Assembly: GCA_004376055.2 (NCBI GenBank)
Contig: CP049016.1
Location: 2,232,001-2,296,000, forward strand
DNA from: Nitrospirales bacterium LBB_01
Lineage (GTDB): Bacteria > Nitrospirota > Thermodesulfovibrionia > Thermodesulfovibrionales > Magnetobacteriaceae
DNA: 64,000 nt
Direction: 5' to 3'
Shown: one piece after another, positions 18,336 to 26,208 of the stretch
Numbering within the stretch: the first letter of the stretch is position 1
Layout: the number at the start of each line of letters is the position of its first letter
Program-made: the position numbers and the translations under genes
Notes under the pieces: model-generated
Database searches by the model: none
What the model was told of the DNA's origin: nothing
The model's input: the letters and a program-made list of their open reading frames with translations, nothing else

Positions 18336-19257
18336 TTAAACATTAAGTTCTATTGTAAACACTGCCCCGTCTGGAATATTTCTGAGATATATTTTACCTT
18401 CTATACTGTCTTCTATTATCATTTTTGACATATAGAGTCCTATTCCCGTTCCAGTTGTGTTGTCTTTGGTTGTAAAATATTGGTCAAATACTTTATCCAT
18501 TATCTCATCCGGAATTCCTCCACCGTTGTCGCTTATTTCCATCTTTAATATGTTATTGTCCCTGTAAACATCAATCGCTATCAGCCCCATGTCGTTTTTA
18601 CTTAATCCGCCACTGCTTCTTCTTTGAATAATTGCATCCTTAGCATTGCTTATGATGTTCATAATAACGTGTGAAAGGTAGCTCTTGTATGTAGTTATTA
18701 TAGTAGCTTCACAGGGTACAATTTCAGAGAGATTGTTAAATGTCTTACCATGAGTGTGGCATGTGATTTTATAGTCAATCATGTTGTGTTTAAATTGGCT
18801 TGACATCATAGAAAATACATCTGCAGATATCCCGATTAAATCAAAGGTCTCTTTTTCTTTTGAAGGTTTAAAAAAGTTTCTAAAATCATCAATAGTCTTA
18901 GATATGAAATTAATTTGCTGCAATGAGTTTTTTATAAAACTATTGATATACTCATCATTGATTTCATTATATTCATATGCGTCTTTAATGTCTTGAACGA
19001 TAACGCTGACTGCATTTAAAGGCTGTTTCCATTGGTGGGCAATAGCGGCTATCATATCGCCCATTGCCGCCATTTTTGACTGCTGAATCAGTAACTTTTC
19101 TTTTTCTTTTATCTCCTGGACTTTATTTTTTACAAGACTGTCAAGGTTTCTATTTAAACGGTCAAGGATATAGTTTTTTGTTTTTAACTCATCCTCGCTT
19201 TCTCTTAACGCATTCTGAATATCTTTTAAATAAGTAATATCCCGAGCTACATGAATA
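18336..19257 (-). pseudogene. histidine kinase, C-terminal part, disrupted by IS element
   Basis: The kinase part of a sensor cut off from its N-terminus by the IS at 19258-20570. It begins with the last strand of a PAS domain (HVARDITYLKDIQ). A coiled coil follows, then a HisKA box MAAMGDMIAAIAHQWKQPLNAV with the phospho-accepting His. The HATPase domain has IISNAKDAI, DNGGGIP and GTGIGLYMSK. It closely resembles the kinase core of the large PAS kinase at 51688-55413. A frame starting inside the IS (ATG 19364) could still express it as a soluble fragment. Confidence 0.8.
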
Positions 19258-19366
19258 GTATAGTGGACCCCATTGTCAAGACCACTTTTTAGTGGACTTA
19301 AGGTATAGCCCTCTAAGAGGGTATTTAGTCTGTTAGTATAAGGGTAAGGGATAGGGTAATGCATCC

Positions 19367-20194
19367 TTACGCCGCCATCGCAAAATCAGAGCTTTTATAA
19401 ACCTCGGCAGGTGTTTTGCCTCTAAGCGTAGAATGCGGACGCTCATTGTTATAAAAATCAAAATAGCTCCTTAGCGCTTTAATCAACTCATCAACAGTTT
19501 CATAATCTTTTATATAAACCTCCTCATACTTGACACTGCGCCACAGCCGCTCAATCATGATATTATCCATAGCCCGTCCTCTGCCATCCATACTTATCCG
19601 AATCCCATTGCTCTGAAGCACATTGATAAACGCTGCCCCTGTATACTGGCTGCCTTGATCTGTGTTGAATATCTCAGGACTGCCATAGAGCCTAAGGGCT
19701 CGCTCAAGGCTACTTACGCAAAAACCATCATCCATTGTCACTGACACCTCCCATGACAGCACATAGCGGCTATACCAGTCCATTACTGCTGTCAGATACA
19801 CAAAGCCATGTCTCATTCGAATATACGTTATATCACTGCACCAGACTTGGTTGATGATAGTAATATCTAATAATCGCAGTAGATAAGGGTAAACTTTATG
19901 TTGCTTATTCCGTACTGTCGTTCTTTTTCTGGGTGCTATAGATACAAGACCCATCAACATCATCAAACGCTTTACTCGCTTGCGATTTACTTTATATCCT
20001 GCTCGGAAAAGAATGTAAACCATTGTGCGGCTTCCATACCATGGATGCATTGTGTACTGCTCATCTATTGCCCTCATCACCTTCAAATTCTCCTCGCTCT
20101 CCGGTACTGCCTGACGATAATAACTGGAGCGTGGAAGGCTTAGCAGGTTACACTGCTGACGAATACTCAATTCCTTATTTGCTGGCTCTATCAT
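19367..20194 (-). CDS. IS3-family transposase OrfB (DDE integrase domain)
   Basis: 275 residues from ATG 20194. An HTH_21-like start (LSIRQQCNLLSLPRSSYYRQ) is followed by the rve integrase core: VWCSDITYIR (first Asp), NTDQGSQYTG (second Asp) and the Glu in MDNIMIERLWRSVKYEEVY. NNERPHSTLRGKTPAEVY is the usual C-terminal box. The true product is probably an OrfAB fusion. Slipping back one base in the A9 run joins orfA to KEPVTCATVSEKRAM in front of this Met. All catalytic residues are present, so the element may still be active. Confidence 0.93.
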   Translation of the reverse strand: MIEPANKELSIRQQCNLLSLPRSSYYRQAVPESEENLKVMRAIDEQYTMHPWYGSRTMVYILFRAGYKVNRKRVKRLMMLMGLVSIAPRKRTTVRNKQHKVYPYLLRLLDITIINQVWCSDITYIRMRHGFVYLTAVMDWYSRYVLSWEVSVTMDDGFCVSSLERALRLYGSPEIFNTDQGSQYTGAAFINVLQSNGIRISMDGRGRAMDNIMIERLWRSVKYEEVYIKDYETVDELIKALRSYFDFYNNERPHSTLRGKTPAEVYKSSDFAMAA

Positions 20195-20208
20195 CGCTCG
20201 TTTCTCAC

Positions 20209-20502
20209 TTACCGTTGCGCAAGTAACAGGCTCTTTTTTTTTAGCCAGTCCACTTCTACTTGCAACTTCCCTATTTGACTATATAACCGCTCTCGCTCTG
20301 ATTCATATGCCGCCTGAGAATTTTCTTGCACTCCATTAAATAACGTTGACGCCCCTTCTACTAAATGCTTTTTCCATTCATTCACCTGGTTCACATGAAT
20401 ATCAAATTCCTGCGCTATCTCATTGGCTGTCCTCTGACCTTTGAGCGCTTCTATTGCTACTTTTGCTTTGTACTCTTTGCCAAACTTCCGTCTGTTTTTC
20501 AT
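20209..20502 (-). CDS. IS3-family transposase OrfA (HTH_Tnp_1)
   Basis: 97 residues. RRKFGKEYKAKVAIEALKGQRTANEIAQEFDIHVNQVNEWKKHL is the HTH of IS3-family OrfA, and a leucine-zipper-like tail follows (RLYSQIGKLQVEVDWLKKK). GGGAGGATAAAATG gives a good ribosome site. It binds the IS ends and regulates transposition. Confidence 0.93.
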   Translation of the reverse strand: MKNRRKFGKEYKAKVAIEALKGQRTANEIAQEFDIHVNQVNEWKKHLVEGASTLFNGVQENSQAAYESERERLYSQIGKLQVEVDWLKKKSLLLAQR

Positions 20503-20570
20503 TTTATCCTCCCATTCATTACAACCAGCTCTATCTTAACTGATTGTCTCATATTTGGGATCCACTATAC

Positions 20571-21235
20571 ATATAGAGTTTATAATCCAGATTGCCTTTT
20601 CCTATAACCTCCATACCACTGGTAAGTTCTCTTATCGGTTTGGCAATGCCTTGATTGATTAAACGTAATATAACAATTATAAAAAGTGTTAAACCGATTA
20701 CAGTTATAATAATCATCATGTGTGCTTTAGAATGAAGAATTGAGAGTTCTTTGTAGCTTATATCGTAAAACTGAGAAGATAAAGAAACAATCGTCTGCGA
20801 CCTTGTCAATACCTGTAAAATTAAATGCCTCTCAAGTTCAAGAGACGATTTACTATCAGCTTCTGTTTGTTTATCGTGAGTTTTGCTAATCTCTAAAAAC
20901 AATTTATTTATACCCTTCAGATTATCGCTTACATCGTTAAGAATTTGCTGTTGCTTGGGATATTTGGATTGCAGTTCAGTCAAAAGGCGCGACAATGAAT
21001 CGGTTTTCAATTGCCATTGTGTGTATATACGTTTTCTGGTTTCTGCTTGCTTTAGCATATAATCATAGACTAAAATATTCATCTCATAAACTTCCTTTAC
21101 CAATTTTTCAGCTGTTTTAGTTGCATTACTTATTTGCTCATCCTGCTGCCTTTCATAGTTAAGCGTCAATCCTATGAAAATTACGACAATAAGAGAGATA
21201 ATTGCGCCAATTTGTAGTTTAGTTTTAATTTTCAT
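20571..21235 (-). pseudogene. histidine kinase, N-terminal sensor part, disrupted by IS element
   Basis: Two TM helices (about 8-26 and 172-190) flank a helical periplasmic domain of about 145 residues. A HAMP domain begins (IAKPIRELTSGMEVIGKGNLDYKL) and breaks off at the IS; the frame then ends in IS sequence at 20549. Removing the IS would join HAMP directly to the last strand of a PAS domain. The second HAMP helix and the PAS core are therefore missing, and more than a simple insertion took place. It starts 6 bases after the substrate-binding protein gene. Confidence 0.78.
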
Positions 21236-21241
21236 AATGTT

Positions 21242-22249
21242 TCACCTTATTATAGTAACAGCTTCAGGTTTCAGTGAGTTTAAGCTATCCGTGTGGATAA
21301 AATAAAAATAATTTGGCACATCGGCGCTCTCCACTACTTTATCATTTATCATCCATCGTGCCTGAGCCTCAAACCTTAAAAGCATTGATTGCTCTAAAAA
21401 CACTTTCAATTTTATATCCTGTAGTGATTGTGATATTTCTAACTCACTGAAGCCCATCTTTTTTGTCACGATGCTTATAGCACGTTTCGGATTATCTATA
21501 GCATACTCCTCAGCCTGTATCAATGCTTTAAGAACTTTTTTTATTACGCCTGGTTTGTTCTTTATAAGGCTGTTTAACGCTACAATGTTAAAGTTTTTTA
21601 TAAGAAGCCCTGGTTCGGCAAAAACTGTTATATTATCTCCAAAATGTTTGACAGCTTGTTCAATAAACGGCTCTCTTGTGGAAATGGCGTCAACTTCGTC
21701 CTTTATCAGCGCATTGTAGGTTTTGGCAGGATCATTAAATGTTATATTAATATCGCCTTCCTTCATGCCGTGTTTCATTAAAAAAAGATGCAGAAAATAG
21801 TGAACACCAGTGCCTTTAATCGTCCCAAGTCGTTTTCCTTTTATGTCCGATGGATTTATAATCCCTTTGTCTTTACTGGCAACGATACGTGGATCGTTAT
21901 CTGCGCTGCCGATAGTTGCTATTACACTAAAATCCTGCCGCTTAAAACTGTTAAATACCACCATATTATCGGCTACCGTAACCATATTAAGTTTGCCCTC
22001 AAACATATCTCTTATAGCCACGTTCCCGCCTTCAACATACTTTACCGTGATATCAAGCCCATTAGAAGTAAAGTAGCCTTTTTCGTCTGCAATCATACAA
22101 AGTGCAGTTATAGGCTCAAAGGCAACAGCAATAGAGGCTTTTTCACGAATTAACGTGTTTTTGCTGCTCTTTATGCTATACCCCAGCACAACTATAGTTA
22201 TTACGGTAGTAATCAGCATCGCCAATATTAAAAAAGGTTTAGATTTCAC
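21242..22249 (-). CDS. periplasmic substrate-binding protein (NMT1/SsuA type), sensor-associated
   Basis: 335 residues, GTG start with AAGGAGG six bases upstream. An N-terminal signal or anchor helix (FLILAMLITTVITIVVLGYS) precedes an NMT1/THI5/SsuA-like binding domain: ADEKGYFTSNGLDITVKYVEGGN, GKRLGTIKGTGVHYFLHLFL, DEVDAISTREPFIEQA. Relatives feed nitrate, sulfonate or thiamine-precursor importers. No permease or ATPase is here. The next gene is a histidine kinase, so this protein most likely presents a ligand to that kinase. With the kinase broken, the pathway is probably dead. Confidence 0.85.
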   Translation of the reverse strand: MKSKPFLILAMLITTVITIVVLGYSIKSSKNTLIREKASIAVAFEPITALCMIADEKGYFTSNGLDITVKYVEGGNVAIRDMFEGKLNMVTVADNMVVFNSFKRQDFSVIATIGSADNDPRIVASKDKGIINPSDIKGKRLGTIKGTGVHYFLHLFLMKHGMKEGDINITFNDPAKTYNALIKDEVDAISTREPFIEQAVKHFGDNITVFAEPGLLIKNFNIVALNSLIKNKPGVIKKVLKALIQAEEYAIDNPKRAISIVTKKMGFSELEISQSLQDIKLKVFLEQSMLLRFEAQARWMINDKVVESADVPNYFYFIHTDSLNSLKPEAVTIIR

Positions 22250-22649: not shown

Positions 22650-23438
22650 ATGAGACTAATAGTGTGTTTATCTATAATAGTGTTTGTAATGTCAGGCTGT
22701 GTTTATCATACTGCCGGCACTGGCGCTGACATTGACGTAAGCGTTGTAAGAAACTACATTGACCCCGTAACCGGTATGAAGTTTATCTATGTCGTGGGAG
22801 GATGTTATCAGATGGGAGACACCTTTGGAGACGGGCAGGACAATGAAAAACCGGTGCATGAGGTTTGTCTGGATAGTTTTTACATTGGAAAATACGAGGT
22901 TACACAAAGACAGTGGGCTAAAATAATGGGTAATAATCCCTCAACGTTTCCCCTTGGCACTGATGACATTCCGGTTGAACACGTCACATGGTACAATGCT
23001 CAGGATTTTATAAATAAACTAAATGAACTGACGGATGGAAAATATCGCCTGCCCTCAGAGGCGCAGTGGGAATATGCCTGTAGAAGCGGCGGTAAAAACG
23101 AAAAATACTCAGGAGGTGACAGTGCCTCAGAGTACGCATGGCTTGCTGCCTATACTGGTGTCAGAACACAATTGACTGGTCAAAAAAGCCCCAATGGACT
23201 TGGAATTTACGATATGAGCGGTAACGTATGGGAGTGGGTTTTGGATGTATATGACAAAGACGCTTACAGCTGGCATGGATATAGAAATCCGGTATATACA
23301 GGTGCAGGGAAAGAGCATGTCATACGGGGTGGAGCGTGGAACGTCTCAGCTCAACAAGCAAGATGCACTGTTAGATACACCGATGCACCGGCCAATAAGG
23401 GCTACAATATAGGTTTCCGGCTGCTTAGGACTAATTAA
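22650..23438 (+). CDS. lipoprotein with formylglycine-generating-enzyme (FGE/SUMF1) domain
   Basis: 262 residues. A signal peptide with lipobox MSGC (Cys 17) precedes an FGE-sulfatase fold (about 40-260): GMKFIYVVGGCYQMGDTFGDGQDNEKPVHEV, YEVTQRQWAKIMGNNPS, YRLPSEAQWEYACRSGG, MSGNVWEWVLDVY, RGGAWNVSAQQARCTVRY, NIGFRLLR. In copper-dependent FGE two C-terminal cysteines are catalytic. Only the Cys of QARCTVRY is seen in that region, so it is probably a non-catalytic or different-activity member, as are many bacterial FGE-like lipoproteins. The AGGAGGGAG ribosome site is good. Confidence 0.85.
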   Translation: MRLIVCLSIIVFVMSGCVYHTAGTGADIDVSVVRNYIDPVTGMKFIYVVGGCYQMGDTFGDGQDNEKPVHEVCLDSFYIGKYEVTQRQWAKIMGNNPSTFPLGTDDIPVEHVTWYNAQDFINKLNELTDGKYRLPSEAQWEYACRSGGKNEKYSGGDSASEYAWLAAYTGVRTQLTGQKSPNGLGIYDMSGNVWEWVLDVYDKDAYSWHGYRNPVYTGAGKEHVIRGGAWNVSAQQARCTVRYTDAPANKGYNIGFRLLRTN

Positions 23439-23676: not shown

Positions 23677-24921
23677 TTATACGACCATAGCAATTAGCAT
23701 AGCAATGGTCAGCAAAATTATCAGTACAATTGTTATCCATGTAATGATGTTGTAGCCGCGCGGATTTATATACTCTCCCATCAGAGTTTTCTTGTTGATA
23801 AGAGTCACTGCATAAATAAGCACAAAGGGCAAAAGCAGTCCGTTAATAAAAGAGGAAAGTACCATTAGAAAAACAAGCGGTGCATGCGGTAGTATTACAA
23901 AAAATGCGGAAAGAAAAATAGTTACCGAATAAATCCACACAAACTGAGGCGCTTGAGAGTACCGTTTGCTGATTCCGGTTTCCCAACCCAATGCCTCGCA
24001 TATATAGTAGGCAGTGGCTATGGGAACGATAATAGCGCCCAGAAGGGAGGCGCTTCCCAAACTGAGGGCATAAATTGCCGAGGCATAATGCCCGGCAAGC
24101 GGCTTAAGAGCAAGGGCTGCCTCCGATGCCTCATTTATTACAATACCTGCCGGAAACAACACCGCTCCACACGTTACTACCATGAAAAACGAGATTAAAT
24201 CCGTCACGATGCTCCCTACAAATATTTCAAGCTTTGACGTTGCAAAATTATCGGTCTTTACCCCTTTTTCCACAATAGAAGACTGCAGGTAAAACTGCAT
24301 CCACGGTGTAATCGTTGTACCAATTATTGCAATGGAGAGCATTACGTATTGAGGGTCAAGCGGATGGGTTATTTTTCTTATGGTTTCCTTTGGCGGAAAG
24401 AGGGTTGCCTTAAAAACGCTGCCCCATTCAGGCTGCGCTAATATTGCTGATATTATGTATCCGGCATACATTATACAAACAAGCAGAAGGATTTTCTCTA
24501 CCGAACTGTAAGTCCCTCTTGTTATAATTAACCAAATGGCAAAAGCACCTGCCGGTACCATGACATACTTTGTAAGACCCAACACCTCCATGCTTGCCGC
24601 AAATCCGGCAAAATCGGCTACCGTTGTGCCAAGATTTGCTATAAAAAGGCCAACCATCATAAGGCAAGCTGCCTTTACCCCATAGTTTTCCCTGATTAAG
24701 TCCGAAAGTCCCTTACCGGTTACCACCCCAAGCCGCGCAACCATCTCCTGTACCACAACCAGTGAAACTGTTATAGGGACTATTGTCCATAAAAGACCAT
24801 AGCCATACCTTGCGCCCGCCACAGAAAATGTAGTAACACCGGCTGCGTCATTATCTATCATCGAGGTGATTAGCCCCGGTCCTATAACGGCAAGGTATAT
24901 TTTCAGACGTTTCAATGTCAT
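23677..24921 (-). CDS. Nramp-family metal transporter with altered metal-site motifs
   Basis: 414 residues, about 11 TM helices. The start GPGLITSMIDNDAAGVTTFS corresponds to Nramp TM1, where the canonical DPGN is DNDA. TM6 reads IGTTITPWMQFYLQSS, where the canonical MPH is TPW. The Met that favours transition metals is thus replaced by Thr. Loss of this Met is known in the Mg-transporting branch of the Nramp superfamily (NRMT). The gene lies 3 bases after an MgtE-N/CBS gene, and both facts point to Mg2+ or a similar hard ion rather than Mn/Fe. Confidence 0.85.
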   Translation of the reverse strand: MTLKRLKIYLAVIGPGLITSMIDNDAAGVTTFSVAGARYGYGLLWTIVPITVSLVVVQEMVARLGVVTGKGLSDLIRENYGVKAACLMMVGLFIANLGTTVADFAGFAASMEVLGLTKYVMVPAGAFAIWLIITRGTYSSVEKILLLVCIMYAGYIISAILAQPEWGSVFKATLFPPKETIRKITHPLDPQYVMLSIAIIGTTITPWMQFYLQSSIVEKGVKTDNFATSKLEIFVGSIVTDLISFFMVVTCGAVLFPAGIVINEASEAALALKPLAGHYASAIYALSLGSASLLGAIIVPIATAYYICEALGWETGISKRYSQAPQFVWIYSVTIFLSAFFVILPHAPLVFLMVLSSFINGLLLPFVLIYAVTLINKKTLMGEYINPRGYNIITWITIVLIILLTIAMLIAMVV

Positions 24922-24924
24922 CGT

Positions 24925-26208
24925 CTATATTTTTTTCCTCTTTTTTCTTGCGCTTGGGGGTAACATAACGTCTATAATGTCGTCGGCAGTCACTATCCCA
25001 AGCATTACGCCCTCATCGTCAACTACCGGAATTGCCACAAGGTTATACTTTGAAATCATGGCAGCAACTGTATCCTCATCGTCGTCGGGCTTTAGTGACT
25101 TGATGTTTGTATTCATACAGTCCATAAGTTTGATGTCAGAGTCAGAAAGGAGAAGCTCTTTAAGCGATATAACGCCAATCAGTTTATCGTCGTCATCAAC
25201 AACATATACGTAGTAGATGGTTTCAACATCTTTGGCGTCAACCTTAAAACTCCTAATGACCTCTATGACTTTAGTGTCCGGGCTATAGGAGAGAAACTCT
25301 GTGGTCATTAGCCCCCCGGCAGTATCCTCGGCGTGTCCCAACAGTTCTCTGATATTCTCAGCATCATCCCTTTGCAGTGTGTCAAGAATTTCGCCGATTT
25401 TACTTTTATGCAGGTCGCTGAGAGTATCAACGGCGTCATCAGGTGACATCTCCTCAATTATCATGGCAATCTTTTTTGTATCCATACTGGCAATGATGTC
25501 AGCCTGAGTTTCAGGCTCAAGTTCCGGCAGGGTTTCAGCCGCAGATTCAACATCCAGATTGCTAAAAAAGTTTGCCCCCTCTTCTCTTGACAGCGAGCTT
25601 ATGATTTCTGCCAAATCCGCAGGGTGCATTTTAGAGAGCATCTGCTGCGGCATTGTAAGAGAAATGGACTTAAGTCTTGGGCTTATGGGTTGAAGGTAAT
25701 TCCACGCAATAAGGTTATATGGAATGGAGACTTTAAAGAATTTAAGGAAATCTTCTCCTTGTTTTTCAACCCTGAGCCGCCTCAAGATTCCCCTTATACC
25801 AACATCAATAGCAAACAACATGGCATGGTTTTGATAGCCGCCCAATTTAATATCGTTAACCCTAACCACCTTAGCGCCATTAATATCCACAATCTGCTTA
25901 TCAAGCACATCGCGCACGGCAAGGAGATCATCTTCTGTAAAATCATAGCCCTGAAGCTCCTCGTGAGTTAAGGAGCTTGTTATTATTCTTTTGTTAAAAA
26001 TACTTAGGCTGCTAAAATCCACCTTATAAAATTTCTTTCGTTTCTCAGACAAACTCCCTGTCCCCTCCACGATGAGAGCGTCAAGGAGCGGCAGGGTCGT
26101 GCCCCGCACTATCACCATATCGTTTAGCTTGCCTAACTCCTCACCATTTTGGTCATAGACAACTTTTTTCAGTATCTCACTTATAAACAACTCGCCAATG
26201 AGAGGCAT
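24925..26208 (-). CDS. soluble MgtE-type regulatory protein (PRC-like, MgtE-N, two CBS)
   Basis: 427 residues with no TM helix. The N-terminal half (about 1-170) looks like two PRC-barrel-like segments (DQNGEELGKLNDMVIVRG, DINGAKVVRVNDIKLG). An MgtE N domain follows (MHPADLAEIISSLSREEG to DDAVDTLSDLHKSK), with LGHAEDTAGGLMTTEFLSY and two CBS motifs. MgtE proteins carry a membrane channel after the CBS pair. Here it is absent and the protein ends in a lysine-rich tail, directly before the Nramp gene. It probably acts as the Mg2+- or nucleotide-sensing gate of that transporter. The ribosome site is GGTGGG. Confidence 0.85.
   Translation of the reverse strand: MPLIGELFISEILKKVVYDQNGEELGKLNDMVIVRGTTLPLLDALIVEGTGSLSEKRKKFYKVDFSSLSIFNKRIITSSLTHEELQGYDFTEDDLLAVRDVLDKQIVDINGAKVVRVNDIKLGGYQNHAMLFAIDVGIRGILRRLRVEKQGEDFLKFFKVSIPYNLIAWNYLQPISPRLKSISLTMPQQMLSKMHPADLAEIISSLSREEGANFFSNLDVESAAETLPELEPETQADIIASMDTKKIAMIIEEMSPDDAVDTLSDLHKSKIGEILDTLQRDDAENIRELLGHAEDTAGGLMTTEFLSYSPDTKVIEVIRSFKVDAKDVETIYYVYVVDDDDKLIGVISLKELLLSDSDIKLMDCMNTNIKSLKPDDDEDTVAAMISKYNLVAIPVVDDEGVMLGIVTADDIIDVMLPPSARKKRKKI

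Follow-up and report, generated by a model that had tools for sequence, protein, structure and literature searches.

An NRMT-type carrier paired with a channel-less MgtE-like sensor, a likely magnesium uptake system in Nitrospirota

Two adjacent genes of Nitrospirales bacterium LBB_01, lying in a 64,000-nt stretch of contig CP049016.1 (the window), encode an Nramp-family carrier of the NRMT type and a channel-less MgtE-like protein, hereafter the sensor. On balance we favour the reading that the carrier serves mainly for Mg2+ uptake and that the sensor exerts feedback inhibition on it in trans. The two-gene arrangement is already known, having been first described in 2014, and the window's branch is set apart mainly by three residues surrounding the metal site. 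What is added here is the near-obligate pairing in Nitrospirota, the exchange of partners, the likely role of the carrier as the host's sole classical Mg importer, and the remodelled ion site.

Both genes lie on the minus strand, the sensor-like ORF (24925-26208) being followed, after a 3-nt spacer (ACG, 24922-24924), by the Nramp ORF (23677-24921). Pfam recognizes MgtE_N (1e-27), two CBS domains (3e-18) and two PRC stretches (2e-6) in the 427-aa sensor, with the MgtE channel domain PF01769 absent, and a full Nramp domain (4e-86) in the 414-aa carrier. Coordinates and Pfam agree with the initial annotation, which had described an MgtE-N/CBS protein without its own channel 3 bases before an Nramp-family gene; its domain reading was right for MgtE_N and CBS and missed the PRC barrels. 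The parts of the pair are as follows.

24925-26208, minus strand: channel-less MgtE-like sensor protein, 427 aa, arranged as PRC barrels, MgtE_N, CBS pair and basic tail
25978-26193, minus strand: first PRC barrel, residues 6-77 (Pfam PF05239; beta strands in the predicted model)
25705-25920, minus strand: second PRC-like beta region, about residues 97-168 (second Pfam stretch; strands in the predicted model)
25324-25629, minus strand: MgtE_N domain, residues 194-295, with E225, D257 and D261
24964-25305, minus strand: CBS pair, about residues 302-415, with D410 and D413, and N389 in place of D226
24928-24963, minus strand: conserved short basic tail PPSARKKRKKI, at the place of the MgtE plug helix (disordered in the models)
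23677-24921, minus strand: NRMT-type Nramp carrier, 414 aa
24838-24849, minus strand: TM1 ion-site motif D25-A-A-G28 (DxxG)
24613-24615, minus strand: TM3 position D103 (Glu133 in EleNRMT; Asn in most of the window's clade)
24301-24318, minus strand: TM6 ion-site motif T202-T-I-T205-P-W207 (TxxT; Thr224...Ala227 in EleNRMT)
23842-23853, minus strand: TM10 S357 (Gln379 in EleNRMT) to N360 (Leu381 in DraNramp)

Convergent with the carrier gene is a gene for an FGE-sulfatase-domain protein (22650-23438). A gene for an NMT1/THI5-like periplasmic binding protein (21242-22249) stands beside a histidine kinase gene that is apparently split (18336-19364 and 20549-21235) by an IS3-type element at 19258-20570; the element comprises orfA (20209-20502), orfB (19367-20194) and 15-nt inverted ends, and is flanked by a probable 3-bp ATA target duplication. 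In a same-genus genome a TPP riboswitch lies just downstream of the carrier gene (L070, 4831-4953); it was not found in the window.

By its sequence, the carrier is an NRMT. Three lines of evidence carry this assignment. The nearest solved structure is that of EleNRMT (7qia; 357 bits, 1e-105), as against 86 bits (2e-23) for DraNramp. The NRMT signature DxxG-TxxA/T is present as D25xxG28 and T202xxT205. In a maximum-likelihood tree of 44 sequences, including 14 canonical Nramps with the host's own DPGN/MPH paralogue (L001), the canonical proteins split from the NRMT side at 100/100, with EleNRMT on the side of the window carrier. The relationship to Mg-transporting Nramps proposed at the outset is thereby borne out, the carrier falling outside the Mn/Fe Nramp clades. 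The C. acetobutylicum and A. capsulatum sequences are not among the 44, and several members (L173, L156) sit on long branches and are themselves unsurely placed. The DxxN and A/CxxM motifs of the canonical Mn/Fe ion site are absent from the carrier, and an adjacent gene for MgtE cytoplasmic domains is present, as in most NRMT members. The residues aligned with DPGN are D25-A-A-G28; the DNDA reported in the initial annotation came from an alignment shifted by two. The Met of MPH is indeed replaced by Thr (T205-P-W), and the His is also replaced, by Trp.

The least familiar feature of the pair is the ion site of the carrier, in which the TM10 Gln is lost, TM6 has Thr and the TM3 Glu is usually lost; the picture is of an NRMT site whose second half has been remodelled. 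The TM10 Gln and TM3 Glu of EleNRMT, which lie outside the published NRMT defining motif, are S357 and D103 here. EleNRMT and seven type-1b sequences have Ala, Gln and Glu in TM6, TM10 and TM3, respectively. In the class with TM6 Thr and no TM10 Gln, the Gln379 position is Ser or Ala in 93/93 sequences and the Glu133 position Asn or Asp in 81/93, the ancestral TM3 Glu being usually lost in the window's clade. At the position of DraNramp L381 the carrier still has Asn (N360). The three changes mark one clade (99/99), with one mixed sequence (L032); they have essentially a single origin and so provide no statistical evidence of covariation. In EleNRMT, Q379A strongly impairs transport and T224A (T202 here) abolishes detectable Mg transport (PMC8806188). 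In the M230A background of DraNramp, L381N shifts transport towards Mg, and substitutions of the TM3 Glu and the TM10 Gln shift it towards Mn.

The sensor aligns with the MgtE cytosolic domain (2yvy, 3e-40). In Thermus MgtE, mutating any of the six cytosolic ligands E59, D91, D95, D226, D247 and D250 stops Mg-dependent closure, and five of these six tested positions are identical in the window sensor: E225, D257 and D261 correspond to E59, D91 and D95 (ligands of Mg7, Mg4 and Mg6), and N389, D410 and D413 to D226, D247 and D250, with Asn in place of D226. Among 95 type-1 sensors the equivalents of D91, D95 and D247 are conserved in at least 99%, those of D250 and E59 in 95% and 93%, and D226 is Asn. 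Identity to MgtE averages 0.81 at ligand sites versus 0.38 at other acidic sites, a modest enrichment (p = 0.03). These conserved ligands and the contrast in identity argue that the protein is competent as a sensor. The plug helix with the Mg2/Mg3 ligands (E258, D259) is absent, a short basic tail standing instead, and the ATP contact F227 of MgtE is Leu. Fewer Mg sites and the lack of a covalent link would fit a putative sensor that, once closed by Mg, works on another protein. A model of the sensor alone, from 21 sequences, is too weak for use (pLDDT 69, pTM 0.34). No sensor homologues were found in viral contigs.

The pair is nearly obligate in Nitrospirota. The sensor gene lies directly upstream of the carrier gene in 78/78 testable loci (of 80 named genome loci, the other two being cut off there by the contig end), and a 4-nt start/stop overlap joins the two genes in 62 of 89 distinct loci; together these figures argue that the pairing is not due to chance. 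Both genes are present in 40 of 53 high-quality genomes (the host and its relatives), neither in 12 and the sensor alone in one (G005), so that the sensor accompanies the NRMT in 40/40 genomes. The proposal of the initial annotation depended on such co-occurrence in other genomes, and it is found. The sensor gene of G005 (G005:C44:55405-56663) is split by a frame change, with decay or assembly error both possible.

In two genera of the host's family, g2 and g3, the sensor and carrier genes lie on different contigs. The sensors are close kin of the window sensor (100/99), the carriers fall in the other lineage (Ala/Gln), and a single clade for the family's carriers was rejected when forced (p-AU 2.5e-40). 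To judge from these trees, the sensor was retained as one carrier lineage gave way to another, through transfer or differential loss of ancient copies. A broader proposal, which we put forward tentatively and regard as rather doubtful, is that in the Nitrospirota NRMT branch the Mg site was remodelled (Asn/Asp for Glu in TM3, Thr for Ala in TM6, Ser/Ala for Gln in TM10), dispensing with a Gln important in EleNRMT, the only NRMT studied structurally, and that the branch is controlled in trans by an exchangeable sensor of the MgtE type, whose partner carriers have differed in lineage and ion site.

A type-2 pair, of ~32% identity and without the D91 and D250 equivalents, occurs in the same taxonomic order as the host. 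At L154, L155, L157 and L160 the carrier comes first in the type-2 pair, the Mg ligands are degraded, and a small hydrophobic residue takes the place of the TM10 Asn. The type-2 sensor is also present on enterobacterial plasmids, namely a Serratia plasmid and the Citrobacter plasmid pPSV (L182), where the pair adjoins genes for a heavy-metal P-type ATPase and an ArsR-type regulator. Pairs were also found in Alicyclobacillus, Rhodococcus, Streptomyces and Leifsonia; an MgtC-like gene follows the Leifsonia pair. No natural sensor-carrier fusion was found, and the long open frame in L063 does not represent one.

The host genome is closed (3.27 Mb, 99.87% complete) and lacks the MgtE channel and CorA, with no MgtA/B above cut-off; its second Nramp is of the canonical DPGN/MPH type. 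It also has a CNNM/CorC-like gene. Proteins of this family have mostly been associated with efflux, so this gene does not settle the question of uptake. Neither CorA nor an MgtE channel is present in 26 of the 40 high-quality NRMT genomes, and an M-box Mg riboswitch (145 bits) lies directly upstream of the Alicyclobacillus (Bacillota) pair. The missing importers in the host, their frequent lack in NRMT genomes and this riboswitch connect the carrier with Mg, and we consider Mg2+ transport by it quite probable. The M-box is a feature of a subset of NRMT members and is not required for membership: no M-box or other riboswitch was detected upstream of the pair in the window, even at E up to 10, and no M-box in the Nitrospirota loci searched. 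Complementarity with CorA/MgtE was rejected as proof of Mg function, since presence of NRMT showed none (Fisher p = 1.0). Five high-quality relatives, G026, G038, G047 and G056 (g15) and G024 (g13), have no NRMT, type-2 pair, CorA or MgtE channel above cut-off, which indicates that the order has further importers.

Mg transport by C. acetobutylicum NrmT proteins was shown by Shin et al. 2014, who also found an MgtE-N-like gene beside most NrmT members and proposed that the MgtE-like partner provides cytoplasmic Mg feedback or acts as a chaperone (PMC4072509). The question of the partner's role dates from that paper; no later work on it was found in the open-access literature searched. Under the explanation we favour, the carrier would be an NRMT-type, probably proton-uncoupled transporter serving chiefly to bring in Mg2+, in a host that has no CorA, MgtE channel or MgtA/B. 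The sensor would be soluble and contain the part of MgtE that senses Mg2+, dimerizing through its CBS pair and binding Mg2+ at millimolar levels through its N/CBS sites. In its Mg2+-bound form it would dock on the cytoplasmic face of the carrier and slow it, and feedback inhibition in trans would replace the covalent plug-helix gate of MgtE.

Adjacency, gene overlap, co-occurrence and the retention of the sensor when unlinked argue for a functional pairing, and that the sensor regulates the carrier appears moderately likely, perhaps by direct gating. The two genes share a reading frame interrupted by a single TAG, and the read-through protein, with TAG read as Gln, was folded as a proxy for the complex. 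In a structure comparison this predicted model matched EleNRMT best, and MgtE cytosolic domains matched too. The domains were recognizable (pTM 0.50), the tail and linker were disordered and no confident interface was seen, in a construct whose 2-residue link would bias docking. The initial annotation had held that the Mg sensor of MgtE gates an Nramp pore. Its functional link and Mg transport are well supported by inference; physical gating is more conjectural, the co-fold speaking neither for nor against an interface, and in the one published co-expression test, of the A. capsulatum pair, the MgtE-like protein brought no improvement in Mg rescue while the carrier rescued Mn uptake (PMC4072509). 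As Nramps are carriers and not channels, gating a pore is better put as inhibiting a carrier, and the idea is not new, pairing and cytoplasmic feedback both being in the 2014 paper.

Several observations weigh against the favoured explanation. The A. capsulatum carrier rescues Mn and its partner gave no help with Mg, and the Clostridium NRMTs needed no MgtE-like protein to transport Mg (PMC4072509). To these are added the lack of an M-box in the window and the Nitrospirota loci searched, the lost TM10 Gln together with the Mn-favouring TM3/TM10 changes in DraNramp M230A, the absent Mg2/Mg3 ligands with Asn for D226 and Leu for F227, the co-fold, the Fisher result and the five relatives without any of these importers.

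Some of these points would suit a carrier that imports mainly Mn2+, or Mn and Mg together, with a sensor responding to Mn2+, which we consider unlikely. The paired NRMT-like carrier of A. capsulatum (Acidobacterium) complements Mn uptake and behaves as a Mn transporter (PMC4072509), EleNRMT carries Mn2+ too (PMC8806188), and the DraNramp changes and missing M-box point the same way. Yet a canonical DPGN/MPH Nramp is present in the host in any case, and no other classical Mg importer is. The carrier has moreover lost the TM6 Met, retains T202, the residue needed for Mg in EleNRMT (PMC8806188), and has Asn at the DraNramp L381 position, and its Alicyclobacillus relative has an M-box.

Nor do we give much credence to a sensor that acts apart from the carrier, as a Mg chaperone or as a membrane or RNA-level regulator through PRC/CBS, and is merely co-expressed with it. 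PRC domains are generic interaction modules, which would suit such a role, as would the absence of a predicted interface in the co-fold and the persistence of the sensor in two genera where it is unlinked and the carrier comes from another lineage. A chaperone role was also named by Shin et al. 2014 (PMC4072509). However, a carrier without a sensor occurs in 0 of the high-quality genomes searched, the lone genome with a sensor and no type-1 carrier (G005) has a frame-broken sensor gene, and translational overlap is tight in most loci.

Mg2+ uptake under feedback from the sensor, the reading we prefer, would give a bacterium without the usual importers a likely one. Inhibition of the carrier by the sensor in trans, if real, would mean that a single Mg-sensing module governs transport folds that are not related to each other. 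For the partner's role, two test cases occur naturally in the Nitrospirota set, the unlinked sensor with a different carrier lineage and the carrier clade without the TM10 Gln.

EleNRMT (Eggerthella lenta, PDB 7qia), for which structure, Mg/Mn transport and lack of proton coupling are established (PMC8806188), has a common fold with the window carrier (~42% identity in the fold match). Both have DxxG, T202 and neither Met nor His in TM6, and they differ at TM6 (Ala to Thr at 205), TM10 (Gln379 to Ser) and TM3 (Glu133 to Asp). Canonical Nramp/MntH proteins (DraNramp and the host paralogue L001) share superfamily and fold with the carrier, which, by contrast, has neither DPGN nor MPH and stands in a separate clade (100/100). 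The MgtE cytosolic domain (Thermus, PDB 2yvy/2zy9) is 35% identical to the sensor over the N domain and CBS pair, with most cytosolic Mg ligands kept; the sensor differs in lacking plug helix and channel, in its extra N-terminal PRC barrels, and in Asn for D226 and Leu for F227. The NrmT/NRMT and MgtE-N-like gene pairs of Shin et al. 2014 (PMC4072509) have the same two-gene arrangement, with feedback already proposed there, whereas the window pair, whose function is predicted, has no M-box, belongs to a Nitrospirota branch and carries a remodelled ion site.
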